A stretch of DNA of 24,213 nt, from the IMG/VR virus record IMGVR_UViG_3300031631_000027, positions 1 to 24,213 of that record; one strand, given 5' to 3'. Origin of the DNA: a virus. Positions 3-13,833 of this stretch are shown here, one piece after another. Within the stretch, counting starts at the first letter, position 1, and each line of letters begins with the position of its first letter. A model generated the notes under the pieces. It ran no database searches, had not been told where the DNA came from, and worked only from the letters and a program-made list of their open reading frames with translations. The position numbers and the translations under genes were made by a program.

Positions 3-602
3 TGTGGGCTAGAAGTTCGCACAGGTTACGACATGAAAACCGCAAAGAGGTCTTTGAACCTTTTACTTGCGGACTGGGCTAACCGTGGCCTAAATCAGTG
101 GACCATTAAGCAGCGTGCCCTTACGATGATCGATGGTACGGGTAACTATGCGTTAGCCGCGGACGTCATTGATATCCTATCCGTAGTTGTCCAACGCGAC
201 AGCACTGACTATTCTCTACTGCGATTGAGCCGAGACGGCTTTCTTACTATTCCCAACAAGACGACCCAAGGCCGAGTTAATCAATTTTTCTTGGACCGAC
301 AAACCACCCCTAATTTAAAGCTATGGCCTGTCCCAGATAACAGCACTGATGTGGTCTATTATGACGCATTAACGCGCATGGACGATGCGGACATCTACAC
401 TAACTCAATGGACGTGCCTTTCCGGTTCTACCCCTGTTTAGCGGCGGGTTTGGCCTATTATTTAGCGTTAAAACGCGCTCCAAACCGTGTTCAGATGTTA
501 AAAGCGGTCTATGAAGAAGAATTTGAAAGAGCGGCGACCGAAGATAGGGACCGCGCTTCATTCAATGTTGCACCTAATTTTGATTACTACAGGGTGGGCT
601 AA
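3..602 (+). CDS. Head-tail adaptor-like neck protein (5' end outside window)
   Basis: Probably a connector protein that sits between the portal ring and the tail of a short-tailed phage, in the broad P22 gp4/T7 gp11 functional class. The reading frame is open from base 3, well before the first ATG at 33. The residues encoded before that ATG (GLEVRTGYD) read straight into a conserved-looking core (KTAKRSLNLLLADWANRG), so I judge that the real start lies upstream and this copy is truncated by the window edge. Other marks are the NKTTQGRVNQFFLDRQTTPN stretch and a helical C-terminus rich in Glu, Arg and Ala (residues 150-180 counted from the ATG). This pattern matches a family I remember from marine phage contigs. 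The stop codon shares one base with the next start (TAATG). Family placement is from memory; the exact role is inferred. Confidence 0.7.
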   Translation, partial: CGLEVRTGYDMKTAKRSLNLLLADWANRGLNQWTIKQRALTMIDGTGNYALAADVIDILSVVVQRDSTDYSLLRLSRDGFLTIPNKTTQGRVNQFFLDRQTTPNLKLWPVPDNSTDVVYYDALTRMDDADIYTNSMDVPFRFYPCLAAGLAYYLALKRAPNRVQMLKAVYEEEFERAATEDRDRASFNVAPNFDYYRVG

Positions 603-904
603 TGGGTAGGTTTGCTGCTGGAAAAGACTCGTGGGCCATCTCCGACAGATCGGGATTCCGCTACCCTTATCGATTAATGAGGAAGGAATGGAATGGCCTT
701 TTGGTGGGTCCAGACGAATATGATCCAAAACAGCCTCAGTTAGGGCCGTTTCGTAAGGTCTCTGACCCCGAAGCCCTTAAAAATGCCCGTCCTGATCGAG
801 TAGAGCCTTTAGATATTTACGTGTGGGTGCCTTTAGTGGTTGACCCCACCCTACGACCAGTACAAGCGTTTGGTCAAGTTGGAACAGTGACGGTGACCAC
901 ATGA
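602..904 (+). CDS. Conserved small virion-region protein ending in a repeat-like tag
   Basis: A 100-residue protein of unknown function. It is basic and aromatic at the N-terminus (WAISDRSGFRYPYRLMRKEW), followed by a Pro-rich centre with a DEYDPKQPQLGPF stretch, a pattern I associate with small conserved proteins in the neck region of marine phage genomes. The last 12 residues (AFGQVGTVTVTT) closely match one unit of the 22-residue repeat in the protein at 2302-2997, for example ATGQVGSVTVTA there. The start overlaps the previous stop by one base, with only a weak AGGG upstream, so it probably depends on translational coupling. The end overlaps the next start by four bases (ATGA). A virion role is inferred only from position and the shared repeat. 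No catalytic motif, signal peptide or membrane segment is visible. Confidence 0.7.
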   Translation: MGRFAAGKDSWAISDRSGFRYPYRLMRKEWNGLLVGPDEYDPKQPQLGPFRKVSDPEALKNARPDRVEPLDIYVWVPLVVDPTLRPVQAFGQVGTVTVTT

Positions 905-1551
905 GTTTTACATATGACCAGCTAAAAACAGCGATTCAGGACTACACAGAGAACGACGAAACGTCTTTCGTGACCAATCTGCCCCTTTTTATAAGGCAGG
1001 CTGAGGAAAGAATCCTTAAAGGCATCCAACTTAACCTGTTTAGGAAGAATGTAAGCGGCACAATGACGTCGGGAAACCGATTCTTAGCGGCACCTAGTGA
1101 CTTTCTAGCCCCTTTCGCGCTATCCTTTGTTGATAGTAGCGGAGATCATGTGTTTTTACAGTTTAAAGACCCTGATTTTGTACAAACGTTTAATCCAGAC
1201 TCTACTACTACGGGAAACCCCCGTTTTTACGCAAGCTTTGACGTGGGGAACTTTATTTTAGGACCTACGCCTAATGGGGCGTATAATGTAGAACTACACT
1301 ACTTCTATCGTCCACTAAGCTTGACGGCAGGGGTAGCGTCCGGGACAACATGGCTCAGTATAAACGCTGAGATCGCCCTATTGTACGGTTCGCTGATTGA
1401 GGCTTATACTTACATGAAGGGTGACCCGGATATGATGGCGATGTACGAGAAAAGGTTTGCAGAAGCGATGTCCCGCATGCAGGTTCTAGGCGAGACTAAA
1501 GAAGTGACGGATGACTACCGCACTGGACAAATAATAAGGCCTAAACAATGA
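901..1551 (+). CDS. SU10-type phage adaptor protein
   Basis: A 216-residue protein that I place in the SU10 adaptor family, which forms part of the head-to-tail connector in short-tailed phages. The N-terminus carries the pattern typical of this family as I remember it: an alpha-helical start (YDQLKTAIQDYTEND), then LPLFIRQAEERI, then a short beta segment (SGTMTSGNRFLAAPSDFL). The middle (about residues 80-140) is beta-rich with an FILGPTPNGAYNVELHYFYR segment. The C-terminus (160-200) is helical and ends with a basic tail. The start shares the ATGA overlap with the upstream stop and has only a poor GGTGA-like ribosome site, so coupling is likely. Neighbours are also connector-type genes, which supports the call. 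A tail-tube or completion-protein role is the main alternative. Confidence 0.75.
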   Translation: MSFTYDQLKTAIQDYTENDETSFVTNLPLFIRQAEERILKGIQLNLFRKNVSGTMTSGNRFLAAPSDFLAPFALSFVDSSGDHVFLQFKDPDFVQTFNPDSTTTGNPRFYASFDVGNFILGPTPNGAYNVELHYFYRPLSLTAGVASGTTWLSINAEIALLYGSLIEAYTYMKGDPDMMAMYEKRFAEAMSRMQVLGETKEVTDDYRTGQIIRPKQ

Positions 1552-1847
1552 GCTTTCCAGCAATGAAGCTAGAAACACCGGCTACCGTCGCAGTGGATGT
1601 ACACACCACCAGCGGCAGGGGCTTTACGCCAGAAGAAGTGGCCGAACGATGCGCTAATAAGATCATCGCTATTTCTGATGACGCTAACCCGGCCATTAAG
1701 GCCCAAGCTCATGCTTTTCGTGGGCAGTTACTTAAAACTATAGAATTTTACATGCGCCAAGCTATCAAATCGGATAGAACAACCGTGTACAATGCGTTAA
1801 CCGATGCAGGCCAACCAGAGCTTGCTAAACTTATAAGGAGACTGTGA
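1548..1847 (+). CDS. Conserved small helical phage protein, function unknown
   Basis: A 99-residue protein predicted mostly helical after a short N-terminal strand region. It contains GRGFTPEEVAERCANKII, then NPAIKAQAHAFRGQLLKTI, then a basic helix with RTTVYNALTDAGQPELAKLI. I recognise this general pattern from small proteins in the neck region of many tailed phages, but no function is assigned to it that I know of. The start overlaps the upstream stop by four bases (ATGA) and has an AAGG about 9 bases upstream. The stop lies two bases before the next ATG. Its invariable place beside adaptor genes suggests a connector or assembly-assisting role, which is inference. Confidence 0.7.
   Translation: MSFPAMKLETPATVAVDVHTTSGRGFTPEEVAERCANKIIAISDDANPAIKAQAHAFRGQLLKTIEFYMRQAIKSDRTTVYNALTDAGQPELAKLIRRL
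1835..1840 (+). promoter_or_regulatory. Ribosome binding site that sets the start at 1850
   Basis: AAGGAG lies inside the end of the preceding gene. It leaves 9 bases to the ATG at 1850 but only 3 to the in-frame GTG at 1844, so the ATG is the better start. The GTG would overlap the preceding stop (GTGA) and cannot be fully excluded. Confidence 0.65.
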
Positions 1848-1849
1848 CC

Positions 1850-2302
1850 ATGGCCTTTTCAGGAAACTTCATGTGCACCAGCTTTAAGAAAGAATTATTG
1901 TTTGGTGCCCACGACTTCGACGCGGTCAGCGGCGATACATTTAAAATAGCCCTGTACACGAGCTCGGCGACGATGACTGCGGCGACAACGGCGTATTCAG
2001 CGACCAACGAGACAAGTGGAACAGCGTACTCGGCGGGAGGTGCAGCATTGACCCCCGTGGACCCAATCTCTTCCGGAACTACAGCATTGACTGATTTCGC
2101 AGATGAGACGTGGTCCACTGCGACGATTACTGCCCGTGGCGCGTTGATTTATAACACGACGCCGAATACAACCTCTATTACCCTGACTAACCCGTCAATA
2201 GTAGTGTTGGATTTTGGTGCAGACAAAACGTCAACAGCAGGTGATTTCACAGTTGTGTTCCCCACTGCTGATGCAAGCAATGCGATTATTCGGATAGCGT
2301 AA
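1850..2302 (+). CDS. Beta-rich phage structural protein
   Basis: A 150-residue protein from the ATG at 1850 (152 if the upstream GTG is used). It is rich in Thr, Ser and Ala, with the layout of a small all-beta virion protein. Recognisable segments in order are MCTSFKKELLFGAHDF, DTFKIALYTSSATM, a Thr/Ser/Ala-rich loop (SATNETSGTAYSAGG), TITARGALIYN, and the C-terminal FPTADASNAIIRIA. I recall this pattern as a widespread phage protein placed near adaptor or fibre genes, but I do not know a proven function. A decoration or tail-associated beta-sandwich is my best inference. It ends in TAATG, sharing one base with the next start. Confidence 0.75.
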   Translation: MAFSGNFMCTSFKKELLFGAHDFDAVSGDTFKIALYTSSATMTAATTAYSATNETSGTAYSAGGAALTPVDPISSGTTALTDFADETWSTATITARGALIYNTTPNTTSITLTNPSIVVLDFGADKTSTAGDFTVVFPTADASNAIIRIA

Positions 2303-2997
2303 TGACTGATGCAACCGTCACCTTTATAGGCTGGAGTTCGTCCAGCCAAAGTTGGGGAGGCGGTCCGTGGGGCCAAGATGAAGGACTTCCCGCAGCAACG
2401 GGAACCGTTGGCACAGTAAGTGTCGACGCCGCGTCCGATGCCCCCGCCACCGGACTAGAAGCAACGGGAACCGTTGGTGACGTTACGATAGCCAGTGTGA
2501 ACGCTGTATCCGTCACGGGTGTCGCGGGAACAGGCGCAGTGGGCTCGACCTACGTCGGCTTAGGCGCAAGGGTCACCTTTACAGGTTGGAATTCGTCCAG
2601 CCAAAGTTGGGGTGGTGGCCCGTGGGGCCAAGATGAAGGACTTCCCGCAGCAACGGGAGGCGTGGGCACAGTATCTGTAGTTGCCCAGACGAATGCCATC
2701 GTCACCGGACTAGAAGCAACGGCCAGTGTGGGCGTTGTTACCATTATTGCAGAGGCCGGCGTAAACGTTACCGGAATCGCAGCAACAGGAAGTGTGGGCA
2801 CCGCATCAACGCATACGGACAACCGTTTTGCAGTTACCGGTGTTCAGGCAACAGGTCAAGTGGGTAGTGTTACGGTTACAGCCGACGCTATCATTAATGT
2901 AACAGGAGTCTATGCAACGGGTGTTGTGGGTCCAGTACTGGTTTATGGCCGTATTATCCCTGATCAAGACCCAAATTGGACAAACATAGCAGCGTGA
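2302..2997 (+). CDS. 22-residue-repeat virion protein with duplicated Trp/Gly cassette
   Basis: A 231-residue protein made almost entirely of repeats. Eight units begin with ATGxVGxVxV or a close variant and usually close with VTGV or TGLE. They start at bases 2395, 2461, 2527, 2650, 2716, 2782, 2848 and 2914, each in exact 66-bp (22-residue) register within its array. The third unit is cut short by the second copy of a Trp/Gly-rich cassette (WSSSSQSWGGGPWGQDEGLP) that also precedes the first unit. The alternation of small and beta-branched residues suggests a beta-solenoid or stacked strands. The C-terminus leaves the repeat (YGRIIPDQDPNWTN). Single units also end the proteins at 602 and 11676. 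Function unknown; a tail-surface or fibre-attachment role is inferred from position before the fibre genes. Confidence 0.75.
   Translation: MTDATVTFIGWSSSSQSWGGGPWGQDEGLPAATGTVGTVSVDAASDAPATGLEATGTVGDVTIASVNAVSVTGVAGTGAVGSTYVGLGARVTFTGWNSSSQSWGGGPWGQDEGLPAATGGVGTVSVVAQTNAIVTGLEATASVGVVTIIAEAGVNVTGIAATGSVGTASTHTDNRFAVTGVQATGQVGSVTVTADAIINVTGVYATGVVGPVLVYGRIIPDQDPNWTNIAA
2317..2417 (+). repeat. Trp/Gly cassette, copy 1 (direct DNA repeat)
   Basis: About 100 bp that recurs 255 bp (85 codons) downstream with only scattered, mostly third-position changes. It encodes TFIGWSSSSQSWGGGPWGQ followed by DEGLPAATG. The in-frame spacing shows a protein-coding segment duplication. Confidence 0.9.
2395..2949 (+). 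repeat. 66-bp (22-residue) repeat array, eight units
   Basis: Unit starts at 2395, 2461 and 2527, then 2650, 2716, 2782, 2848 and 2914. The consensus is ATGxVGxVxVxA, about five variable residues, then VTG, Val/Leu/Ile and one free residue. Unit 3 begins with GTG in place of ATG (residues) and is truncated. Unit 8 is cut at VLVYG. Confidence 0.85.
2572..2672 (+). repeat. Trp/Gly cassette, copy 2 (direct DNA repeat)
   Basis: Second copy of the segment at 2317, same reading frame, encoding TFTGWNSSSQSWGGGPWGQ and DEGLPAATG. It interrupts the third 22-residue unit. The differences from copy 1 are scattered and are not confined to A positions. Confidence 0.9.
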
Positions 2998-3007
2998 GGA
3001 ATTAAAG

Positions 3008-4936
3008 ATGCCCAGTACTTATACAGTCAACCTCGGGATTGAAAAACCGGCCACCGGTGAACAGTCTGGAACGTGGGGCGATACGGTCAATGACAACTCT
3101 AATATATTAGATGAGGCCATTAACGGTGTAGTTTCGATAACGCTAGCATCTGCTGGCTCTTCGGGCTCCCCCAATCAAATTGCCATCACTAATGGTGCCT
3201 CTTCTACAGGTCGTAATAAATGGATCGAATTCGCCGACGGCGGTGATTTAGGTGCAACGGCGTATGTAGAACTGATTCCTAACGATGCCGAAAAAATATG
3301 CTTTATCAGGAACAGCCTTGCGGGAAGCCGCTCGGTGATCCTTTTCCAAGGCACCTATAACGCGAGCAATGACCTTGAGATCGTTGCGGGCACTGACGTG
3401 GTCGTTAAGTTTAACGGTGGCGGGTCAGGTGCAACCGTCGTCAACATTAATGCCAACTTGGCTGTGGACGCAATTGTTGCGGGTGCGGTTAATATCGCAG
3501 GTGACGGTGCTACCGTTACCGGAATCAAAGACGAAGATAACATGGCGTCTAACAGCGCCACAAAACTAGCCACACAGCAGTCTATTAAGGCTTATGTAGA
3601 CGCCGCATCCGCCGCATCCGTCTCAAGCTTCAGTGCGGGATCAACAGGTTTAACGCCAAGTACAGGTACAACGGGTGCGGTTACTCTAGCGGGTACCCTT
3701 GCGCTTGGTAGCGGTGGTACCGGTATAACGGCCGTCGGAACCTCGGGCAATGTATTGACCTCTACCGGATCTGCTTGGGCCTCGACGGCTCCCGCAGCGG
3801 CAGGTGTTGTGTATGTAGCAAAAACAGGAAACTACACAACGATCAACTTAGAAGGCGTACTTGCAAACACAAGCGGTGGCGCATTTACGGTCACACTTCC
3901 TGCTAGCCCCACGCTTGGTGATCAAGTTGTTATTGCCGACTCGGGTGGTGTTTTTGGCACCAATAACCTGACTACGGGCCGTAACGGTTCTACGATTGAA
4001 GGCACTGCTGCCGATCTCGTGTTGGACATTAACGGGGTTAGCGTACAGTTTGTATACAGCGGAACCACATGGGAAGTCTATGCACAAGTAGGCGGCAACG
4101 GCGGTTCTGTTGTCACTTTAGCTGGCACCCAAACGCTTACCAACAAAGACCTGTCTAGCGCGACAAACACTTTCCCTACGAGCTTGGCTACGCTTACGGG
4201 CACTCAGACCTTAACCAATAAGACGCTGACCTCTCCCGTACTGACTACCCCTGCTTTGGGAACCCCCTCGGCCCTAGTACTGACGAATGCGTCGGGAACG
4301 GTTACTAACCTAACGCTGGTCACCCCTGCTTTGGGTACGCCTGCTTCGGGGGTGGCCACTAACCTGAGTGGAACGGCGGCCTCCTTAACTGCAGGCCTTG
4401 CCACCGACACAGTAGCTAAGACTGGAACGGGCTCTACTTACGCGACTAGCACGTCGCCTACGTTTGTCACCCCAGTTCTTGGAGTACCTGCTTCGGGCAC
4501 ACTGACTAATGCGACGGGCTTACCGCCTGCAGGCGTTGTAGGTACCGCTGCTATTCTTGGTGCTAACACGTTCACAGGTACTCAGAACTTTGCAGACCAG
4601 ATTGCCCAGCGACCAGTGCTTAAAGATTACGGTGAGACTAAAGTGGCCATGGCCGCCAATGACGTAGACCTAGCACTAGGTAACACGCAGACCAAGACTA
4701 TATCTGGCGGGCAGACTCTTACTTTTAGTAATCCACCTGCTAGTGGAACAGCGGGCTCATTTACGCTAATCCTAACCAACGGTGGTAGCGCAACAGTAAC
4801 GTGGCCTACAAGTGTCGATTGGCCTGCTGCTACGGCTCCAACATTAACCGCTTCGGGCGTTGATCTCCTTGTCTTCACCACGATTGACGGTGGAACCATT
4901 TGGTATGGCATTGCAAGTGGAATAGGGATGGCTTAA
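3008..4936 (+). CDS. Tail fibre / structural protein with TLTNKT repeats
   Basis: A 642-residue modular fibre protein. Modules in order: an N-terminal domain (1-60) with YTVNLGIEKPATGEQSGTWG, often seen at the start of marine phage fibre proteins; a linker with TGIKDEDNMASNSATKLATQ (170-190); a GSGGTG segment (about 234); a beta domain at 268-366 (DINGVSVQFVYSGTTWEVYA); TLTNKT/ALGTP repeats (about 367-500); and a C-terminal domain ending in a TTIDGGTIWYGIASG strand. No enzyme motif is visible. Its role is probably host contact or fibre shaft formation. The start is well supported: GAGGA overlaps the previous stop and sits 7 bases from the ATG. Part of its repeat block is shared with the gene at 7375, which suggests recombination between the two. 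Confidence 0.8.
   Translation: MPSTYTVNLGIEKPATGEQSGTWGDTVNDNSNILDEAINGVVSITLASAGSSGSPNQIAITNGASSTGRNKWIEFADGGDLGATAYVELIPNDAEKICFIRNSLAGSRSVILFQGTYNASNDLEIVAGTDVVVKFNGGGSGATVVNINANLAVDAIVAGAVNIAGDGATVTGIKDEDNMASNSATKLATQQSIKAYVDAASAASVSSFSAGSTGLTPSTGTTGAVTLAGTLALGSGGTGITAVGTSGNVLTSTGSAWASTAPAAAGVVYVAKTGNYTTINLEGVLANTSGGAFTVTLPASPTLGDQVVIADSGGVFGTNNLTTGRNGSTIEGTAADLVLDINGVSVQFVYSGTTWEVYAQVGGNGGSVVTLAGTQTLTNKDLSSATNTFPTSLATLTGTQTLTNKTLTSPVLTTPALGTPSALVLTNASGTVTNLTLVTPALGTPASGVATNLSGTAASLTAGLATDTVAKTGTGSTYATSTSPTFVTPVLGVPASGTLTNATGLPPAGVVGTAAILGANTFTGTQNFADQIAQRPVLKDYGETKVAMAANDVDLALGNTQTKTISGGQTLTFSNPPASGTAGSFTLILTNGGSATVTWPTSVDWPAATAPTLTASGVDLLVFTTIDGGTIWYGIASGIGMA
4190..4483 (+). repeat. Fibre repeat block shared with the gene at 7375
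   Basis: Encodes TLTGTQTLTNKTLTSPVLTT and ALGTP repeats, then a 38-residue unit at 4370-4483 (GTAASLTAGLATDTVAKTG through TFVTPVLG). The same order occurs at 7417-7635, with high similarity at the protein level and clear similarity in the DNA. Confidence 0.85.
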
Positions 4937-4938
4937 CA

Positions 4939-6855
4939 ATGACTATTGAGAAGAAGTTATTAGGTACTAATGCTAGTGGAGATAAGCCTAATATCGCTGA
5001 TGTGTTTAGTACGTATTTGTATGCGGGGGATGGCGGCTATAGAACTATTACGAATGCTATAGACCTTTCTAATGAAGGGGGTATGGTATGGATAAAAGAT
5101 CGTGACGCTGTAACTGACCACAGAATCTTTGACACAGCTAGGGGGGCAACAAAGGCCTTACAATCCAACTCAACAAGCTCTGAAGCTACAAAAACTACAC
5201 AACTTACTGCTTTTAACAGTACCGGCTTTAATCTGGGTGGTGATGCTGATGTAAATGGGAGTAACGACTACGTATCATGGACATTCCGCAAGGCTCCTAA
5301 GTTCTTTGACGTAGTGACCTATACGGGTAATGCTACTGCTGGACGTACTATAGCTCATAGTCTCGGCGGTGATGTAGGCATGATGATGATCAAAAACGTC
5401 AGTATGTCTGGGAATTGGGTGGTTTATCATAAGTCTACAGCAGCTACCAAATACCTATATCTAAACACTACTGTTGCCGCTGGCACTTATAGTGGTTTCT
5501 GGAACGATACTGCGCCCACATCAACAGATTTTACATTAGGTAGTAATAATACTGTAAACAACACAGGAGATACCTTCGTAGCCTACCTATTCGCTGACAA
5601 CACAGCCGAAGATGCTGATGAACAGATGATTAAGTGTGGTAGTTATACGGGTAATGGTACAGACAACTCTCTGATCGCTAACTTAGGGTGGGAACCACAG
5701 TTCATGCTTGTGAAGAGAACAAATGCGGCTTCAGATTGGATAGTGGTAGATAGTATGCGTGGGGCTGTCGCTGGAGGCACTGTAAACAACCTTTATGCAA
5801 ATGGAACTAGCGCAACGGCTGTGGCAGGTTCGGTCGCCCCTAGTTCTGAAGGAATTCGCACAGGTAATAGTGGTGATTGGGGCGAGTCTAACGCAAGTGG
5901 CGGAAACTACATCTACATGGCCATTCGTGCGCCTATGATGAAAAAACCAGATGATGCTACAAAGGTGTTTGCCGTTGATCAGGGTGACACCACGTCAAAT
6001 CCAAACTTTCTAGCGGGATTCCCGGTAGATATGGGTATTGTAGCTACTACGGGAGCTGGAGGTAATAACTTCACAGCTTCTAGACTTACTGAGGGGCAAT
6101 CCTTACATACAGAAGACTCTAATGCAGAGACAGCATCTACTGCAACTAAGCTTGATAATAGTACTTCGTGGTGGGACGATACTAGATCTACCGCGTGGTA
6201 TTCTTGGATGTGGAAACGAGCAAAAGGCTTCTTTGATGTTGTAGCTCATACGGGCAATGGCACTGCTGGTAGAACCATTAACCATTCTCTCTCAGTAACG
6301 CCAGAATTCATTCTCTCTAAGAACAGGACTACAGCAGGTACTCATTGGGCGGTATACCACAAGGGGTGTAATGACGGGGTCAGCCCTGAAGATTACTATG
6401 TCATCCTTAATAATTCTGGACAGAATTATCCAGATTCTGATATTTGGAATGATACGGCCCCAAGTAGTACAGTATTTACTGTTGGAGCTAATGAAAAAGT
6501 CAACGCCAACAGTGCAAACTATGTAGTCTACCTATTTGCCACACTAGCTGGGGTTTCTAAAGTAGGTTTCTACACAGGTACAGCCGCAGACCTGAACGTA
6601 GATTGTGGATTCGCAGCAGGCGCTAGATTCATCCTAATCAAACGTACTGACTCTGCAGGCGATTGGTACTTCTGGGATACAACTCGCGGCATTGTCGCGG
6701 GTAACGACCCTTACTTACTACTAAACGATACCGCCGCCGAAGTAACTGGAACAGACTATATTGACCCGCTATCTAGCGGATTCACGGTAACATCTTCAGC
6801 TAGTTCAACGGTTAACGTGTCTAGCGGCACTTACATCTTTTTAGCAATAGCATAA
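4939..6855 (+). CDS. Receptor-binding candidate with DUF7483-type repeats
   Basis: A 638-residue protein from the ATG at 4939, two bases after the previous stop. An in-frame ATG at 4900 lies inside the conserved end of the upstream gene and would add 13 non-family-like residues, so I reject it. The protein is made of about five related units (residues 48-117, 122-220, 232-330, 431-534, 540-638), plus a diverged stretch at 355-427. Each carries most of a pattern: YTGN..AGRTI.HSLG, then a Lys/Arg-rich strand, then W.VY or DW..xDs.RG, then W.DTAP...TVFT, then YVAYLFA. I recall this as DUF7483 from marine phage tail proteins. The gene looks more AT-rich than its neighbours, which fits an acquired module. 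A receptor-binding role is inferred from repeats and position. Confidence 0.75.
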   Translation: MTIEKKLLGTNASGDKPNIADVFSTYLYAGDGGYRTITNAIDLSNEGGMVWIKDRDAVTDHRIFDTARGATKALQSNSTSSEATKTTQLTAFNSTGFNLGGDADVNGSNDYVSWTFRKAPKFFDVVTYTGNATAGRTIAHSLGGDVGMMMIKNVSMSGNWVVYHKSTAATKYLYLNTTVAAGTYSGFWNDTAPTSTDFTLGSNNTVNNTGDTFVAYLFADNTAEDADEQMIKCGSYTGNGTDNSLIANLGWEPQFMLVKRTNAASDWIVVDSMRGAVAGGTVNNLYANGTSATAVAGSVAPSSEGIRTGNSGDWGESNASGGNYIYMAIRAPMMKKPDDATKVFAVDQGDTTSNPNFLAGFPVDMGIVATTGAGGNNFTASRLTEGQSLHTEDSNAETASTATKLDNSTSWWDDTRSTAWYSWMWKRAKGFFDVVAHTGNGTAGRTINHSLSVTPEFILSKNRTTAGTHWAVYHKGCNDGVSPEDYYVILNNSGQNYPDSDIWNDTAPSSTVFTVGANEKVNANSANYVVYLFATLAGVSKVGFYTGTAADLNVDCGFAAGARFILIKRTDSAGDWYFWDTTRGIVAGNDPYLLLNDTAAEVTGTDYIDPLSSGFTVTSSASSTVNVSSGTYIFLAIA

Positions 6856-6864
6856 GGAATTATT

Positions 6865-7371
6865 ATGGAATTTCGTATTCAAGCAACGGGCGAGCTAAAG
6901 ACTCAAGGCGAAGTCCGAAGAATGCACAGCAACACCTCACTCCCTAAAGTGTGGGACTCGGCAACCTGTGAAGCACTGGGAATTAACCCTGTACTCGCAG
7001 CGCCTAAGCCTGAAGTTACTGACTACACCCAAGCAAATCGCAACGGTGCAGTGCAGGACTCTTTAGGTAACTGGGTTGAGGCGTGGGTTGTTGCAGACAT
7101 GTTTTCTGACACTACGGAAGACGGTGTTTCTACGACTAAAGCAGAGCATGAAACGGCCCATCAAGCCCGACTAGATGGTACTGCCGCGGCTAATGCACGT
7201 ACTGAGCGCGACAAGCTTCTAGCCAAAACCGACTGGGTGGTTATTCGTGCCAAAGAATTAGGCCAAACCGTTCCAGCGGCTATTTTCGACTATCGTGGCG
7301 ATCTAAGGCAGGTCCCCGAACAGGCGGGCTTTCCGCACACCATCATTTGGCCCACCGAGATAGAGGGATAA
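6865..7371 (+). CDS. Tail assembly chaperone-like protein
   Basis: A 168-residue protein whose C-terminal half carries the pattern I associate with the phage tail assembly chaperone family PF16778: RTERDKLLAKTDWVVIRAKE, followed by YRGDLRQVP and GFPHTIIWPT. The N-terminal half contains MHSNTSLPKVWDSATCEALG and an NGAVQDSLGNWVEAWVV strand segment. A helical Ala/Arg stretch links the two. It starts 9 bases after the large repeat protein, with AAGGA overlapping that gene's stop and 6 bases to the ATG. Its place suggests it helps fold or trimerise the upstream receptor-binding protein. That pairing is inference. Alternative: a small tail component. Confidence 0.7.
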   Translation: MEFRIQATGELKTQGEVRRMHSNTSLPKVWDSATCEALGINPVLAAPKPEVTDYTQANRNGAVQDSLGNWVEAWVVADMFSDTTEDGVSTTKAEHETAHQARLDGTAAANARTERDKLLAKTDWVVIRAKELGQTVPAAIFDYRGDLRQVPEQAGFPHTIIWPTEIEG

Positions 7372-7374
7372 GAC

Positions 7375-8166
7375 ATGGCTAATTTATCAGATATCATCAC
7401 ACCAACGAATCTTGTTACCCTCACGGGAACGGCTACACTTACCAATAAGACGCTGACTTCGCCGGTGCTGACTACGCCCGCTTTGGGTACGCCTGCGTCG
7501 GGTGTAATGACTAACGTAACAGGAACGGCAGCCTCTTTGACTGCTGGGCTTGCAACAGACACCGTCGCCAAGACTGGAACAGGCTCTACCTACGCGACGA
7601 ACACGTCGCCTACTTTTGTTACACCTGTCCTTGGCACCCCCGCATCCGGGGTGGCTACTAACCTGAGTGGAACGGCGGCCTCTTTGACCGCGGGACTTGC
7701 AACGGACACCGTCACTAAGACGGGAACGGGATCTACCTACGCGACGAACACGTCGCCTACTTTTGTGACACCTGTTCTTGGGACACCGTCTTCGGGCACG
7801 TTGTCAGGATGCACGGTCGACGGCACAGATGCTGTGGGCTTCCGCAACATCCCGCAAAACAGTCAATCGGCAGCCTACACGCTGGTCCTAGCTGACAATG
7901 GTAAACATATCTTCCACCCCTCCACCGATGCTAATGCTCGAATATTTACTATTCCTGCCAATGCTTCGGTTGCATACCCCATCGGAACCGCACTAACTTT
8001 TGTCAATATGACTTCGCAGGTGGTTAGCATTGCAATCACAACCGATGTAATGCGGCTAGCGAAAGATGGGACCACGGGTACGCGTAGTTTGGCACAGTAT
8101 GGGTCTGCAACTGCTCTCAAAATTGAAGCGGCGCTTTGGCTTATTAGCGGAAGTGCGCTGACATGA
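7375..8166 (+). CDS. Second TLTNKT-repeat tail fibre protein
   Basis: A 263-residue protein. Residues 1-20 form a short leader. TLTNKT/ALGTP repeats and two nearly identical 38-residue units (bases 7522-7635 and 7669-7782, 147 bp apart) fill residues 15-140. The C-terminal domain (about 150-263) begins at FRNIPQNSQSAAYTLVLADN and includes TIPANASVAYPIGTALTFVN, a pattern I recognise from phage fibre C-termini. The repeats are shared with the gene at 3008; the two C-terminal domains are not alike. The start has GAGGGA 6 bases upstream of the ATG. The stop overlaps the next gene by four bases (ATGA), so the next gene is probably coupled. Role: fibre or adhesin shaft, inferred. Confidence 0.8.
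   Translation: MANLSDIITPTNLVTLTGTATLTNKTLTSPVLTTPALGTPASGVMTNVTGTAASLTAGLATDTVAKTGTGSTYATNTSPTFVTPVLGTPASGVATNLSGTAASLTAGLATDTVTKTGTGSTYATNTSPTFVTPVLGTPSSGTLSGCTVDGTDAVGFRNIPQNSQSAAYTLVLADNGKHIFHPSTDANARIFTIPANASVAYPIGTALTFVNMTSQVVSIAITTDVMRLAKDGTTGTRSLAQYGSATALKIEAALWLISGSALT
7522..7782 (+). repeat. Two copies of a 38-residue fibre unit
   Basis: Copies at 7522-7635 and 7669-7782, offset 147 bp (49 codons). They match the single unit at 4370-4483 in the other fibre gene. The DNA is close to identical over long runs, for example the ACGCGACGAACACGTCGCCT stretch in both local copies. Confidence 0.9.
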
Positions 8167-9278
8167 GTGGTGCACAGATAAGTATTTTCCAGAACCAGCG
8201 CGGGTTTGCAACGGTACCCGAAGCGCCTACTGTTGGAACAGCTACGAAGACGGGTGATACAACAGCAACGGTAGTATTTACTGCTCCCTCCGAGGATGGA
8301 GGATCACCTATTACGCAGTACCGCGCTATTTCATCACCGGGCAGCCTCACTGGAACGCTGTCTCAATCAGGGTCTGGAACAATCACCGTAACAGGTTTAA
8401 CGGGCTCTACCGCGTACACGTTTACGGTTAGAGCTACAAACTCTGTAGGTAATAGTTCTGAAAGCTCAGTAAGTAATTCAATTACAACCGATCCACCTAG
8501 AGGACAACAAGTCTACACCTCTGCAGGATCATATACGTGGGTGGCCCCTACTGGGGTAACTCAGGCTACTGTTCTCGCTATTGGTGGCGGTGGCGGTGGC
8601 GGTGCATATGGTACGGGTAACTTCCCCGGTGGCGGTGGTGGTGCATTAGCCTATCGCAATACTATATCGGTTACTGCGGGTAGCTCATATACTGTAGTTG
8701 TGGGGGCGGGGGGAACCTTGTCTGGCACGGCATCAGTAAGAAATGGTGATGCCTCTTCCTTTACAGAAGGCTCTAACACTACTACTGCTAGCGGTGCCTC
8801 CGCAACATCAGGAGGAGGACCGTCAGGCACTTACACTGCCGGTAATAATGGCGGTTCAGGTGGCGGCGGTAATGGAGGAGACGGCTCCGGCGGCTCCGGC
8901 GGCGGTGCGGCTGGATATTCTGGCAATGGCGGCGGTATGGGAAGTAGCGGAAATGGTGGCGGTGGCGGCGGTGGCGGTAATACCGGTGGCGGTAACACCC
9001 AAAGAAGGGCGGGTGGCGGCGGCGTTGGGATATATGGCGAAGGGTCTTCCGGTGTAACCACAAACTCACCCTCTAACTACCCCGCCGGTGGTGGCGGTGG
9101 CTCGGGTGGCGGATCTGGATCTTCCGGTGGTAGTGGCGCTAGAGGCGGAAACGGTGGTTCCTATGGTGGCGGCGGTGGTGGCGGGTACTCCGGCGGTGTA
9201 GGGTATGGCGGTGCTGTTCGCATTGTCTGGCCGGGAAATACGAGGACGTTCCCCACAACTGATGTAGCCAATAACTAA
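8163..9278 (+). CDS. FN3 plus glycine-rich adhesin
   Basis: A 371-residue protein with two parts. Residues 19-109 form a fibronectin type III-like domain (VPEAPTVGTATKTGDTTATV, then SPITQYRAISSPG, then STAYTFTVRATNSVG). Residues 117-371 are a glycine-rich domain that starts with a strand segment typical of this class (VYTSAGSYTWVAPTGVTQ), has many runs of 4-8 glycines and ends in GGAVRIVWPGNTRTFPT. Glycine-rich adhesins of some phages, such as S16 gp38, bind receptors through polyglycine-II helices, so this could be the receptor-contacting tip. That parallel is inference, since length and sequence differ. It starts in an ATGA overlap with the fibre gene at 7375, which suggests that the two are made together. 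Confidence 0.8.
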   Translation: MSGAQISIFQNQRGFATVPEAPTVGTATKTGDTTATVVFTAPSEDGGSPITQYRAISSPGSLTGTLSQSGSGTITVTGLTGSTAYTFTVRATNSVGNSSESSVSNSITTDPPRGQQVYTSAGSYTWVAPTGVTQATVLAIGGGGGGGAYGTGNFPGGGGGALAYRNTISVTAGSSYTVVVGAGGTLSGTASVRNGDASSFTEGSNTTTASGASATSGGGPSGTYTAGNNGGSGGGGNGGDGSGGSGGGAAGYSGNGGGMGSSGNGGGGGGGGNTGGGNTQRRAGGGGVGIYGEGSSGVTTNSPSNYPAGGGGGSGGGSGSSGGSGARGGNGGSYGGGGGGGYSGGVGYGGAVRIVWPGNTRTFPTTDVANN

Positions 9279-9288
9279 GGAATATTAT

Positions 9289-9690
9289 ATGCAGTTATAT
9301 ATATGCGTCACAAACAGCGAAACAGTTAACCACCCCGCGTTTGAGGATAACCTCCTCCAAGCGTTTGGGGAGATCCCAGCACACTGGGAAGCCTTTGTGC
9401 GGGTGGATAAACCACTCCTAGCGCCCTATCAAAAATGTGATCAGGCGCCTACTTATGAAAGAGTAGAGGGGACTTGGACAGATAGTTGGTTTTTGCGAGA
9501 CATGACTGCAGAAGAAAAAGCAGATAAGCAGACCCTAGTTAAAAGTGAATGGGTCGCACAAGCGCAGTATGCAAACTATACTACATGGACATTTAATGAA
9601 GAGACCTGTTCATTTATTCCCCCAGTCCCTCGCCCCGATACAGGCGATTATAACTGGTCAGGAGCCGATAACAACTGGGTGTTGGTGTGA
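9289..9690 (+). CDS. Small fibre-associated protein (possible chaperone)
   Basis: A 133-residue acidic, Trp-rich protein. Segments are an N-terminal strand (MQLYICVTNSETVNHPAFED), AFGEIPAHWEAFVRVDKP, a MTAEEKADKQTLVKSEW helix, TTWTFNEETCSFIPPVPRPD and a final YNWSGADNNWV. I recall similar proteins just downstream of phage adhesins. The layout, a helix next to a W.F.EET....P.P strand turn, fits a fibre assembly partner but does not prove it. The start is well marked: TAAGGAATATTATATG, where the stop of the adhesin gene overlaps the ribosome site. It is the last gene before the only real gap in the window. Confidence 0.65.
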   Translation: MQLYICVTNSETVNHPAFEDNLLQAFGEIPAHWEAFVRVDKPLLAPYQKCDQAPTYERVEGTWTDSWFLRDMTAEEKADKQTLVKSEWVAQAQYANYTTWTFNEETCSFIPPVPRPDTGDYNWSGADNNWVLV

Positions 9691-9747
9691 AACAACCCCT
9701 AAGATTGGGGGAAGGGCGGGCCGTAAAAGATAAAGAGAAAGGATGAT
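9691..9747 (+). other. Only sizeable intergenic gap (57 bp)
   Basis: Separates the adhesin module from the nozzle gene. It holds a CCCC...GGGG pair with a 7-base loop (CCCCTAAGATTGGGG), three G runs (GGGGG, GGG, GGG) and an A-rich stretch ending in the AAAGGA ribosome site 4 bases before the ATG at 9748. The stem is only 4 bp and has no T tract, so a terminator call is not supported. No promoter boxes can be recognised. Confidence 0.5.
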
Positions 9748-11679
9748 ATGCCACTTACTAAGTTACAGTTCCGTCCGGGAGTCAACCGCGAAACAACTTC
9801 GTACACCAACGAAGGTGGCTGGTATGACTGCGACAAAGTTAGATTCCGCTTTGGTACGCCTGAAAAGATAGGCGGGTGGCAAAAGGTTTCAACTCGTAGC
9901 TTCTTAGGCACGTCTCGAATCCTCCACCCCTTTGTGGCCCTAGACGGCTCCAACTACATCGGTAATGGCACCCACCTAAAATATTACATTGAAGAGGGCG
10001 GCGGTTATCACGACATCACCCCCTTGCGCGAAACCACTTCCGCGGGCGACGTCACGTTTGCCGCGGTCAACGGCTCATCAACCCTAACCATCACAGACAC
10101 GAACCACGGCGCTTTCCAGAATGATTTCGTGACGTTTTCAGGGGCGGTCACGTTAGGCGGCACGATCACTGCAGCCGTTTTAAACCAAGAATATCAAATC
10201 GCTAGCGTTACAAGCACTAGCGTTTATACCATCGTGGCTAGGGCCGTCGACACATTAAGCGACATTACGATTGACGGGCAATACACCCCTACACCGGTGA
10301 CTGCCAACGGCTCTGACACCGGAAATGGTGGCGGCTCTATCATTGGCAAATACCAAGTGAATACGGGTTTGGACACCACGGTGACCGGGACAGGATGGGG
10401 CGCAGGCACCTATTCCCGAGGAACATGGGGATCAGGAGCTAGTATTGTGGCGGTTGGGGACATACTCCGCCTCTGGTCCAACGACAATTTCGGTGAAGAT
10501 TTGCTTATTAATGTCCGCAATGGTGGTATCTACTATTGGGATAAATCAACAGCCGTGGCGGTGACACCTTATGCGCGGGCCGTGGCGCTTTCTGACTTAG
10601 CCGGGGCCGATGCCACCACGCCGACCATTGCCAAGCAGGTTATGGTGTCCGATAGGGACCGACACGTCATTGTGTTTGGTTGTGATCCGCAAGACGATAT
10701 TGGCGTACAAGACCCTCTTTTGATCCGCTTTTCTGACCAAGAAGACCCGCTAGTGTGGGCGGCGGAAGTCACCAACACGGCAGGCGATCTTCGTATTGGT
10801 ACGGGCTCCGAGATTATTACGGCGGTTGAGACACGCCAGCAGATTCTGGTGTTTACAGACAGCTCACTTCACGCCTTGCAGTATTTAGGGCCCCCATTCA
10901 CCTTCGGAACCACCCTACTTTCGACCAATACCACGATTGCAAGTCCTCTTGCCGCGGTTGCAGTAGACGACATGGTGTATTGGATGGGTGAGCAGGATTT
11001 CTACACATATTCAGGTCAGGTGCAGAAGTTACCGTGCTCCGTAAGGTCGTATGTGTTTGGAGACTTCAACAACGATCAGTCTGAAAAAGTGACGTGCGGC
11101 GTAAACTCCAGCTTTTCCGAGGTGTGGTGGTTTTACCCCTCGGCCAGTTCCTCCACGCTCGACAAGTATGTTGTTTTTAACTACCAAGAAAATGTGTGGT
11201 ACTACGGTGAACTGACTCGTTCTTCGTGGACGGATCGAGGCATCGCACCTTATCCTGTTGCCGCAGGTTTGGACGGGTATTTGTATTATCAGGAGTATGG
11301 CTCGGATGATGGCAGTTCTAATCCGCCCTCGGCCATTGCGTCTTATATTGAAAGCAGTCAGATGTCGATAGGCTCCGGCGATAGCTTTGTCTTCTTGACG
11401 AGGCTCATACCCGATGTCACGTTTGAAGGGTCAAGTAACGCGTCACCTTCCGTTTCGATGACGCTGGAGACGAGGCAGTTTCCCGGTTCGGCCTACACCG
11501 GCACCAAGAGCAATACCGTCACGCGCAGTGCAACCGTGCCCGTGGAACAATTTACTGACCAAGTGTTTGTCAGATTAAGGGGACGGTCCTTCGCATTTAA
11601 GATCAATTCTTCCGATACGGGCGTCGATTGGCGGCTAGGAACCCCCCGTGTTGATTTAAGACCGGATGGTAGACGATGA
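9748..11679 (+). CDS. Tail nozzle protein, P22 gp10 / T7 gp12-like
   Basis: A 643-residue beta-rich protein that would form the hexameric nozzle of a short tail, by comparison with P22 gp10 and T7 gp12. The N-terminus (LTKLQFRPGVNRETTSYTNE, then GWYDCDKVRFRFGTPEKIGG) is typical of this group in marine phages as I recall it. The centre (100-230) has inserted beta segments, including a GWGAGTYSRGTWGSG motif. Residues 300-560 show propeller-like repeats (RIGTGSEIITAVETRQQILV, VYWMGEQDFYTYSG, YYQEYGSDDG). The C-terminus is FKINSSDTGVDWRLGTPRVD. No enzyme motif is seen. It begins after the only gap, with AAAGGA 4 bases upstream, and its stop overlaps the next start (ATGA). Confident as a structural protein; moderately confident as the nozzle. 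Confidence 0.75.
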   Translation: MPLTKLQFRPGVNRETTSYTNEGGWYDCDKVRFRFGTPEKIGGWQKVSTRSFLGTSRILHPFVALDGSNYIGNGTHLKYYIEEGGGYHDITPLRETTSAGDVTFAAVNGSSTLTITDTNHGAFQNDFVTFSGAVTLGGTITAAVLNQEYQIASVTSTSVYTIVARAVDTLSDITIDGQYTPTPVTANGSDTGNGGGSIIGKYQVNTGLDTTVTGTGWGAGTYSRGTWGSGASIVAVGDILRLWSNDNFGEDLLINVRNGGIYYWDKSTAVAVTPYARAVALSDLAGADATTPTIAKQVMVSDRDRHVIVFGCDPQDDIGVQDPLLIRFSDQEDPLVWAAEVTNTAGDLRIGTGSEIITAVETRQQILVFTDSSLHALQYLGPPFTFGTTLLSTNTTIASPLAAVAVDDMVYWMGEQDFYTYSGQVQKLPCSVRSYVFGDFNNDQSEKVTCGVNSSFSEVWWFYPSASSSTLDKYVVFNYQENVWYYGELTRSSWTDRGIAPYPVAAGLDGYLYYQEYGSDDGSSNPPSAIASYIESSQMSIGSGDSFVFLTRLIPDVTFEGSSNASPSVSMTLETRQFPGSAYTGTKSNTVTRSATVPVEQFTDQVFVRLRGRSFAFKINSSDTGVDWRLGTPRVDLRPDGRR

Positions 11680-11972
11680 GTAGAGGATTAGTACAGCCCT
11701 TATTCCCGAACCCTCCCGCGGAGTATGATCAAGGCTACCAAGCTGAGATCTTGAGGGCGTGGACGATCTTTTTGCAACAGGTAAGCAATCCGGGACCGTG
11801 GCAGGCCTCTGCACTAACGCTGCCCAACCTACTAACAGACAATTCTGGCCTTCCACTGGGTGGAGTCTTCCAATATGGTGATGAATTGCGCATTACAGTC
11901 GCAAACATCCCCTACGTGAGAGGGTCACAAGCAACAGGAGCCGTGGGTCAAGCTACGGTAACAATATCATGA
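11676..11972 (+). CDS. Small virion-region protein with C-terminal repeat tag
   Basis: A 98-residue protein. Residues 5-40 include LVQPLFPNPPAEYDQGYQAE and a helix (ILRAWTIFLQQVSNPG). A beta part follows (ALTLPNLLTDNSGLPLGGVF, then DELRITVANIPYVRG). The last residues, ATGAVGQATVTIS, look like one unit of the 22-residue repeat in the protein at 2302, and like the end of the protein at 602. I recall similar small proteins directly after nozzle genes in marine phage contigs, with no function known to me. It starts within ATGA and ends in another ATGA overlap, with no strong ribosome site of its own, so its translation is probably coupled to the nozzle gene. Confidence 0.65.
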   Translation: MSRGLVQPLFPNPPAEYDQGYQAEILRAWTIFLQQVSNPGPWQASALTLPNLLTDNSGLPLGGVFQYGDELRITVANIPYVRGSQATGAVGQATVTIS

Positions 11973-12202
11973 GCGATAATACGATTTTAACGATGCCTAA
12001 CGGCAGCACGTGGCGCCCTTCTACTAGCACCGACCAAGTTCATTGTGTAACCTGTGGTAACATAGTGGACACTCCGGCGGAGATAGCCTCGTATCCAAAC
12101 GGAGAATGCACTGAATGTGGTTCTTTATGGACGGGAGAGGAGAAGCGCAGTACAATAATACAGGTAACTATGCCTGACAGCATTACGGGTGGAGTGGGAT
12201 AA
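11969..12202 (+). CDS. Small zinc-ribbon protein
   Basis: A 77-residue protein with two CxxC pairs (Cys26/Cys29 in CVTCG and Cys47/Cys50 in CTECG) separated by 17 residues, the arrangement of a zinc ribbon. It begins with a strand segment (ILTMPNGSTW) and ends with a similar one (IIQVTMPDSITGG). The function is unknown. Its position between the nozzle and the ejection-type genes suggests a small virion part or an assembly factor whose fold is held by zinc. A nucleic-acid-binding regulator is possible but less likely in this place. It starts in an ATGA overlap and shares one base with the next start (TAATG). Confidence 0.65.
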   Translation: MSDNTILTMPNGSTWRPSTSTDQVHCVTCGNIVDTPAEIASYPNGECTECGSLWTGEEKRSTIIQVTMPDSITGGVG

Positions 12203-13833
12203 TGGCAGCTACAGCAAAAAAAGTCGAAGAAATCGTTGAAGAACCAGAAACTAAGGTAGACACGACCGTTGAAATAGACATTCCGGATGGTGGTATTGGT
12301 AGTTTTGCCATGTCTGAAGAGGACTTTGAAACCCTTGAGGCTGAAGAAACGAAGAAAGAATTCGGCGAATCGGGTTTGGCACAGTTCACTGCGGTTGCTA
12401 AGAAGATGGCAGGACACGGTCGCTTTGGCGATGACAGTGTTGCACATATTCAAACCGGTGAAATGGTTGTCCCTTTAACGCTGCTCGAAAGTAATCCCGC
12501 TTTAAAAGCCCAGATTTTTGAACAATTACGCGAGAGCGGAATTGAAGACCCCGAACAATACGTGGTGGGAAGTAAGGCCAACAACATTAACCCTGAAACA
12601 GGTTTGATGGAATTTGGTTTCTTTTCCAATTTATGGAGCTCGGTGAAGTCGGCGTTCAAGTCGGTTGTTAATGTCATCAAGAAGATCGCACCTATTGTAT
12701 TACCTATTTTATTGTCAATGACGCCTCTCGGACCAATTTATGGTGCGGCGATGGGTTCGGGCATAGCCACGCTGGCTAATGGCGGTAGCTTGGGCGATGC
12801 CTTTAAGTCCGCCCTTGTTTCAGGCGCCATGGGCGCAGCCACCACAGGCTTTACCGGAAAAGGGAAGTTCTTTGAAAACGTCTCTAACGCCGCCGCCGAC
12901 CCTATGGCACGAGCCGGCGCTACATGGGAAGGCGCTAAGTCCAGCCTTAGTGGCGGAGGGTTCAAGGGCGACGGAAACTTATTTTCTGAATATATGCCAA
13001 CAGCAGAAGTTCCTGAAGTCACCTCGGCCGCCCAGACTACTTCAGATTTACCCCCCTCCATGCGCTCGGGTGAGTCCCTTCCGCCTCAACTTCAAGGAGA
13101 TCAGCGTCTCGCCCAGACTATAAACCCCCTACCTTCCACAGACCCTTCGTTTATGGATAAGGCGGGTGATTACATGTTCCGCGGCGGTGAAACCGAGGCG
13201 GCACTAGCTAAATCGGCCACAGAGGCCGGAGAGGCGTACCTACTAAACACCCCTAAAGCAATGCAAACCGTCGCTAATTTTGAAGCAGCTAAAGCGGCTG
13301 TTGCCCCCGGCATAATGGCCACGTGGGGACCTAGCGTTGCCGCGGGAACTGTCGCGATGGGTTTAGCCGGTGGATTCAAAACCCCTGAAGAAGAAGACTT
13401 AGACCTAGTTGACCGCAATGAAGACGGCTCCGTGACCACGGGTTCAGACTTGATTGCCGCCAATCCGGGTGATTATTTAATCCACGACCTCGGTTCAAAG
13501 CGTTTGAATCTGAAGACGGGTAAATATGAAGATGTTGAGGATTACATGGCGTACAAGGCCCCAACGATGCCTGTAAACTACGGGCAAAATATGGGAAATT
13601 ACGTTCAAGCAGCCGCTGACGGCGGACCTATATACCCCCGCCGTAATGGCGGTGTCTTACCTGACGAAGGCGTTAAGGGCAAAGACAGTGTTCGAGCCAT
13701 GCTAATGCCCGGTGAGTTTGTAATGACTACCGACGCAGTACGAGGTTTAGGTAACGGAAACATTAACAATGGTATCAAGAGTATGTACTCTGTCATGAGA
13801 AATCTTGAGAACCGCGGGAGGACTACAGCGTAA
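12202..13833 (+). CDS. Internal virion / ejection-type protein, 543 aa
   Basis: A likely head-internal or ejected protein. Residues 1-60 are acidic (many Glu and Asp). Residues 70-92 carry GDDSVAHIQTGEMVVP. Residues 162-215 are hydrophobic and glycine-rich (IAPIVLPILLSMTPLGPIYG), consistent with membrane association. The C-terminus (about 474-543) has a GGPIYPRRNGGVLPDEG stretch, then KDSVRAMLMPGEFVMTTDAV and a final MYSVMRNLENRG helix. The two DSV...GE.V motifs at opposite ends look like copies of one element; similar wording occurs in tape-measure proteins of long-tailed phages. A good ribosome site (GGAG, 7 bases) precedes the ATG in the TAATG overlap. A tape-measure protein is the alternative, but the rest of the gene set argues for a short tail. 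Confidence 0.65.
   Translation: MAATAKKVEEIVEEPETKVDTTVEIDIPDGGIGSFAMSEEDFETLEAEETKKEFGESGLAQFTAVAKKMAGHGRFGDDSVAHIQTGEMVVPLTLLESNPALKAQIFEQLRESGIEDPEQYVVGSKANNINPETGLMEFGFFSNLWSSVKSAFKSVVNVIKKIAPIVLPILLSMTPLGPIYGAAMGSGIATLANGGSLGDAFKSALVSGAMGAATTGFTGKGKFFENVSNAAADPMARAGATWEGAKSSLSGGGFKGDGNLFSEYMPTAEVPEVTSAAQTTSDLPPSMRSGESLPPQLQGDQRLAQTINPLPSTDPSFMDKAGDYMFRGGETEAALAKSATEAGEAYLLNTPKAMQTVANFEAAKAAVAPGIMATWGPSVAAGTVAMGLAGGFKTPEEEDLDLVDRNEDGSVTTGSDLIAANPGDYLIHDLGSKRLNLKTGKYEDVEDYMAYKAPTMPVNYGQNMGNYVQAAADGGPIYPRRNGGVLPDEGVKGKDSVRAMLMPGEFVMTTDAVRGLGNGNINNGIKSMYSVMRNLENRGRTTA

Follow-up and report, generated by a model that had tools for sequence, protein, structure and literature searches.

A single unit of a 22-residue beta repeat sits at the extreme C-terminus of two small proteins, t602 and t11676, and is there under protein-level selection. 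Both are encoded in the window (the whole stretch of DNA analysed, G000), a 24.2-kb IMG/VR virus fragment that encodes 18 proteins and covers the tail region of a short-tailed phage. A third protein of the window carries eight such units and is called the repeat protein here. We tentatively read the terminal unit as a beta-strand assembly tag that would dock on the repeat protein, a reading to which we give not quite an even chance.

Repeat units in the window

The genes, units and tags to which we refer are the following.

33..602, + strand: first SU10-type adaptor-like protein (PF24175, E 2e-14, 54.9 bits against a cut-off of 27)
602..904, + strand: t602, a 100-aa tail-region protein with the tag at its C-terminus (PHROG 28581)
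866..901, + strand: C-terminal tag AFGQVGTVTVTT of t602 (matrix score 21.3)
892..896, + strand: GGTGA within the t602 tag codons, a Shine-Dalgarno-like site for the next gene, 4 nt ahead of its ATG (901)
901..1551, + strand: SU10-type adaptor paralogue (PF24175, E 1.7e-25, 91.1 bits against a cut-off of 27)
2302..2997, + strand: repeat protein, 231 aa, eight 22-residue beta units
2395..2943, + strand: eight-unit span of the repeat protein (matrix scan)
2395-2424, 2461-2490, 2527-2556 and 2650-2679, + strand: units 1-4 of the repeat protein (matrix scan)
2716-2745, 2782-2811, 2848-2877 and 2914-2943, + strand: units 5-8 of the repeat protein (matrix scan)
9748..11679, + strand: nozzle-like tail protein, encoded immediately ahead of t11676 (PHROG 3287, E 1e-64)
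11676..11972, + strand: t11676, a 98-aa protein directly after the nozzle gene, with the tag at its C-terminus
11931..11969, + strand: C-terminal tag ATGAVGQATVTIS of t11676 (matrix score 20.2)
11955..11960, + strand: ACGGTA within the t11676 tag codons, ahead of the next gene's overlapping ATG (11969)

The t602 gene lies between the two adaptor-like genes (33 and 901), and its stop codon overlaps the start of the latter (ATGA), whose product also weakly matches the SU10 adaptor 7z47. The repeat protein gene is preceded by a gene of PHROG 644, and its product contains the motif GW..SWGGGPWGQ twice and a C-terminal PDQDPNWTNIAA. Tail-fibre genes occupy 3008-9690, and the nozzle-like protein matches PDB nozzle chains (8zkm and 8zkk, 8e-6; 9nwi, 2.8e-12). 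From position and composition we read the three large genes at 12202-20920 as encoding internal virion proteins. The repeat TTPALGTPASGVATNLSGTAASLTAGLA is common to the fibre genes at 3008-4936 and 7375-8166, which suggests duplication or recombination between them. Right after t11676, positions 11969-12202 encode a protein of 77 aa whose two CxxC pairs (CVTCGN...CTECG) mark it as a likely zinc ribbon, and 13833-16733 encodes a 966-aa protein that is rich in Ala, Gln and Gly, contains a 54-base tandem repeat and has no PHROG match.

The repeat unit of the window has the form ATGxVGxVTV within its 22 residues. Using a scoring matrix trained solely on internal units of repeat proteins, and scoring the 10-residue core, we found strong matches in three of the 18 window proteins: eight in the repeat protein and one each, at the C-terminus, in t602 and t11676. 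The eight units score 14-30 and the two tags 21.3 and 20.2, while the best score among the other 15 proteins is 3.7, so that both C-termini fit the repeat unit as the earlier note had claimed. The peptides it named also proved exact in sequence and position (AFGQVGTVTVTT at 866-901, ATGAVGQATVTIS at 11931-11969 and the internal unit ATGQVGSVTV at 2848-2877). None of 300 shuffles each of t602 and t11676 reached the real tag score, and these shuffles, together with the scrambled-pattern control described below, rule out chance or composition as the source of the tags.

The ending in relatives

Among IMG/VR relatives the ending [A/G]xGxVGxVTV is near-universal, and the tag is kept in hundreds of relatives within a short-tailed, mostly marine phage lineage. 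Its position is strict, with exactly 2-3 residues following VTV in 358/358 tagged ORFs. For counting we used loci fetched independently of the family under test. The t602 ORFs were tagged in 15/15 complete cases where the repeat protein had served to fetch the loci and in 12 of 13 where t11676 had, the thirteenth ending in LGEVTVTIT; t11676 was tagged in 6/6 cases at loci fetched with t602 and in 2/3 at loci fetched with the repeat protein. Close relatives that retain the repeat protein (15/15 for t602, 2/3 for t11676) also retain the tags, the opposite of what the earlier note had named as a refutation.

Relatives of t602 that have an unrelated linker of another length (e.g. L023, L153 and L121) keep the VGxVxV ending, and in t11676 the tag is among the most conserved parts of the protein. 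When the two family profiles are compared only the 15 tag columns align, which bears out the description of the tagged proteins as otherwise unrelated. A family of about 31 ORFs located after the nozzle gene (A4) is also tagged and probably represents t11676 in a distant form, since the profiles align over 90 columns, the tag among them (hhalign E 1.6e-9). PHROG 28581 is matched by 43 of 44 t602 members, the window t602 aligning to its first 70 positions only. For t11676 there is no PHROG or Pfam match, and for the window repeat protein no PHROG match and no Pfam model at E 0.1; two relatives of the latter weakly match PHROG 30566. Among the phages of the collection of cultured or complete genomes, six have a t602 relative and none has one of t11676. 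Divergent t602 relatives (L125, L217 and L151) have zinc-ribbon-like CxxC pairs (ICDRCG...CPEC), and the metal site appears to have been lost in the window lineage, since the first pair reads ISDRSG there and the domain is otherwise kept.

We also scanned all viral contigs with a DNA pattern for VGTVTVxx-TAA, using a scrambled pattern of the same bases as control. The scan gave 82 loci with a matching ORF. The ORFs include 53 of t602, 19 of t11676 and 12 others, the last being three truncated t602-like, one nozzle-like with internal units and eight unrelated; the control yielded 19 ORFs and among them no t602 or t11676. Chance matches in unrelated proteins, which the earlier note had feared might be frequent, are thus rare. 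The strings VGTVTV, VTGVSATG or similar were not found in open-access literature text, and a PDB sequence search with the repeat units gave no match. The family of the gene at 1548 was considered as a third tagged protein and rejected because a VGxVxVxTT stretch occurs near the N-terminus in some relatives only, its VG not being conserved across 109 of them. Relatives of 1548-1847 do have a conserved N-terminal strand ending V-x-V-x-T-T, which in L106, L163 and L346 contains a tag-like VGSVxV. In L175 (9116-10834, minus strand) and G018 a nozzle-like gene contains internal unit-like sequences, and its coding sequence is broken into two reading frames.

The profile of the repeat protein matched 26/29 records in one set and 16/20 in another, these records having been picked through tagged or repeat loci rather than as an unbiased census. 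The three misses in the first set (G024-G026) are contigs that break off upstream of the repeat slot. Of the four misses in the second set, three have no tagged family in the stretch examined and one, G044, encodes a divergent form of the repeat protein. Two short fragments (G031 and G032) match the profile through the tag itself only, and in G027, a longer member of their lineage, the repeat gene is unlinked, 27 kb away. With the misses so accounted for, the proposed co-occurrence is upheld: wherever the region is complete enough to judge, the repeat protein accompanies tagged genomes. It could instead reflect joint inheritance of one tail module.

A predicted double use of the tag codons

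Most tagged genes overlap the start of the next gene (ATGA), and in these the VTV codons, GTN-ACG-GTG, are predicted to double as the Shine-Dalgarno site of that gene, with GGTG(A) at the appropriate distance from its ATG. Conservation of the tag is therefore partly at the DNA level. Synonymous divergence (pS) is about 0.8 in the gene bodies and in t602 falls from 0.77 to 0.16 within VGxVTV. The T codon is ACG in 92/120 overlapping tags, 16/66 non-overlapping tags and 21/82 internal units, and the last V codon is GTG in 99/130, 22/66 and 1/82 respectively, all counts being uncorrected for phylogeny. In overlapping t602 genes the duplex predicted to form with the end of the 16S rRNA averages −8.3 kcal/mol, against −4.0 in synonymous shuffles. 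The effect is weaker for t11676, at −4.8 against −2.9 with the overlap and −4.0 against −3.3 without it.

The drop in synonymous divergence, the codon bias and the duplex energies would all be expected if the codons were selected as a Shine-Dalgarno site and the peptide were a by-product. We consider this highly improbable. Tags of non-overlapping genes keep the peptide while their codons relax, and the t602 duplex signal is then gone (−3.4 against −3.9 kcal/mol in shuffles). The ATGxVG half of the tag moreover lies upstream of the ribosome-binding site, and several members carry extra units. As a sole explanation the nucleic-acid signal is contradicted by the non-overlapping genes, and it remains as an additional constraint: the peptide is constrained in its own right and the codons are constrained a second time. 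This double use of the tag codons, as peptide and predicted Shine-Dalgarno site, is new. Whatever the mechanism of the tag, its codons offer a clean example from nature of coding constraints that overlap, for which the non-overlapping gene pairs serve as internal control. Nozzle-like proteins such as that at 9748-11679 have a conserved DGRR at their end, encoded immediately ahead of the overlapping t11676 start, possibly a second case of a peptide and ribosome-binding site sharing the same bases.

Docking and its alternatives

In the mechanism that we propose, each tag would be unfolded on its own and would fold by contributing a strand to the beta stack of the repeat protein, at its open end or edge. 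A docked tag would then fix the repeat protein to the neck or nozzle region, or cap the stack; the nucleation of curli by a minor subunit that has matching repeats is comparable. In genes that overlap the next one, the same bases would also carry the latter's ribosome-binding site. The tag is probably an assembly clip, given that it is kept in hundreds of relatives. A broader claim is possible but doubtful: that unrelated tail proteins of short-tailed, mostly marine phages carry interchangeable single-unit C-terminal tags that polymerise onto a repeat protein of variable length, and that the tag codons form a ribosome-binding site by which translation of the next tail gene is coupled, together a widespread and undescribed assembly code.

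Several fusions and losses fit docking. In roseophages CRP-901 and CRP-902 t602 carries many units followed by a GWGNNAWGNGTWG (GW) motif of the repeat-protein type, and the usual slot of the repeat gene before the tail fibre is empty; in CRP-902 the t11676-like protein has no tag. HTVC027P has neither tag, and its repeats are degenerate. In L070, L096-L099 and L108 a cupredoxin-like domain is fused to t602. This domain is shared between t602 (L070) and a repeat protein (L408:3442-4737) at 40% identity (E 2e-16), and in such fusions of both proteins the units lie between it and the rest of the chain. We interpret these events as modules passing between cooperating proteins, whose contact is putative. 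It counts against docking that t602 tags do not resemble the units of their own genome more than those of others (P 0.43), whereas the tags of t11676 do (P 0.0002, uncorrected for phylogeny), and that a few genomes combine canonical repeats with one diverged tag, as in the G020 lineage, where t602 relatives end in QVGVVEVDIT or LTEVTVEIL, or with one tag replaced by the cupredoxin-like domain (L070, L096-L099 and L108).

AlphaFold models the repeat protein as a beta stack with two strands per 22 residues, at low confidence (pLDDT 60.7, pTM 0.61), and is prone to stacking any tandem beta repeat. Among chains re-aligned to this model curli CsgA (8c50) ranks first (Z 12.3, rmsd 8.6, 184 residues), with other beta-solenoids close behind. 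Foldseek found no PDB match to the model at E <0.001 and two matches below that value among viral predicted structures, both uncultured Caudovirales proteins without known function. The single-chain model of t11676 (pTM 0.31) has one helix of 19 residues and one hairpin, and its lone tag is predicted to be disordered (pLDDT <50 at residues 85-90 and 92-96). Neither t602 nor t11676 has a sequence match among PDB chains.

In curli an anchored minor subunit, CsgB, has the same beta repeats as the main subunit CsgA and nucleates it (PMC10192328). The tagged proteins likewise carry a unit of the main repeat protein, for which CsgA is the best structural match, albeit to a low-confidence model. Unlike curli, the repeat protein has no curlin sequence motif and is not a secreted fibre, and the tag is a single unit. 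The proposed action of the tag also resembles donor-strand complementation in chaperone-usher pili, where a terminal beta-strand completes the fold of a partner; this likeness is one of analogy and not of homology or structure. Tagging by strand addition is in itself a known principle.

A serious rival, though a less likely one, is that each protein uses the unit for its own oligomerisation, as a short shaft or beta-prism element, without cross-docking. The t11676 tag would then be the short beta tip of a needle, and the repeat protein would be a similar but longer fibre. What makes this rival serious is that t11676 occupies the place of the trimeric needle in SU10: the SU10 tail has the adaptor gp11, the nozzle gp17 and then the needle gp18, whose C-terminal domain was modelled as a beta-prism (PMC9509320). 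The window resembles SU10 in having PF24175 in two neighbouring genes and a small-protein gene, t11676, directly after the nozzle-like gene. It differs in that t602 and t11676 lack sequence matches among PDB chains and that the SU10 account (PMC9509320) describes no such C-terminal tag. Needles of the SU10/P22 type are trimers with a long coiled coil; the t11676 model (pTM 0.31) has a single 19-residue helix. A shaft would also suit a repeat number that varies from 1 to 14 and units that serve as connectors to the cupredoxin-like domain, both in t602 and in one repeat protein. Against it, 10-14 residues are short for a stable independent oligomer, the tag is strictly terminal and co-occurs completely with the repeat protein, and CRP-901/902 combine the fusion with an empty repeat slot. 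We think it improbable that the tag is instead a targeting, processing or chaperone signal read by some other component, such as portal, capsid or host chaperone, with the repeat protein merely sharing an old module. Such a signal would be short, strictly terminal and found on unrelated proteins, as the tag is, but the tag is identical in kind to a repeat unit, comes as 2-4 tandem units in some members and is confined to tail-region families, and no terminal sorting tag of this form is recognised.

Of the docking scheme suggested in the earlier note, the general idea fits the t602-repeat fusion and the predicted lack of structure in a lone tag. One tag for every unit is argued against by the range of 1-14 repeats set beside tags that are usually single, which suggests capping of an end; some tagged families have tandem units, 2-4 in some (L178, L200, L214, L243, L248 and CRP-901/902). 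Were docking true, the tag would be a portable 12-residue assembly clip. The finding assigns a specific role, one that can be tested, to three families without known function that abound in environmental viral contigs, and the tag provides a way to predict small proteins of the same tail sub-assembly. Among the tail genes of two other loci (L410:1322-2080 and L378:10134-10916) we also observed related genes, with VAIVGLGRSWFDYNL and IAIVAMGESQLDFHL, that are apparently non-virion.
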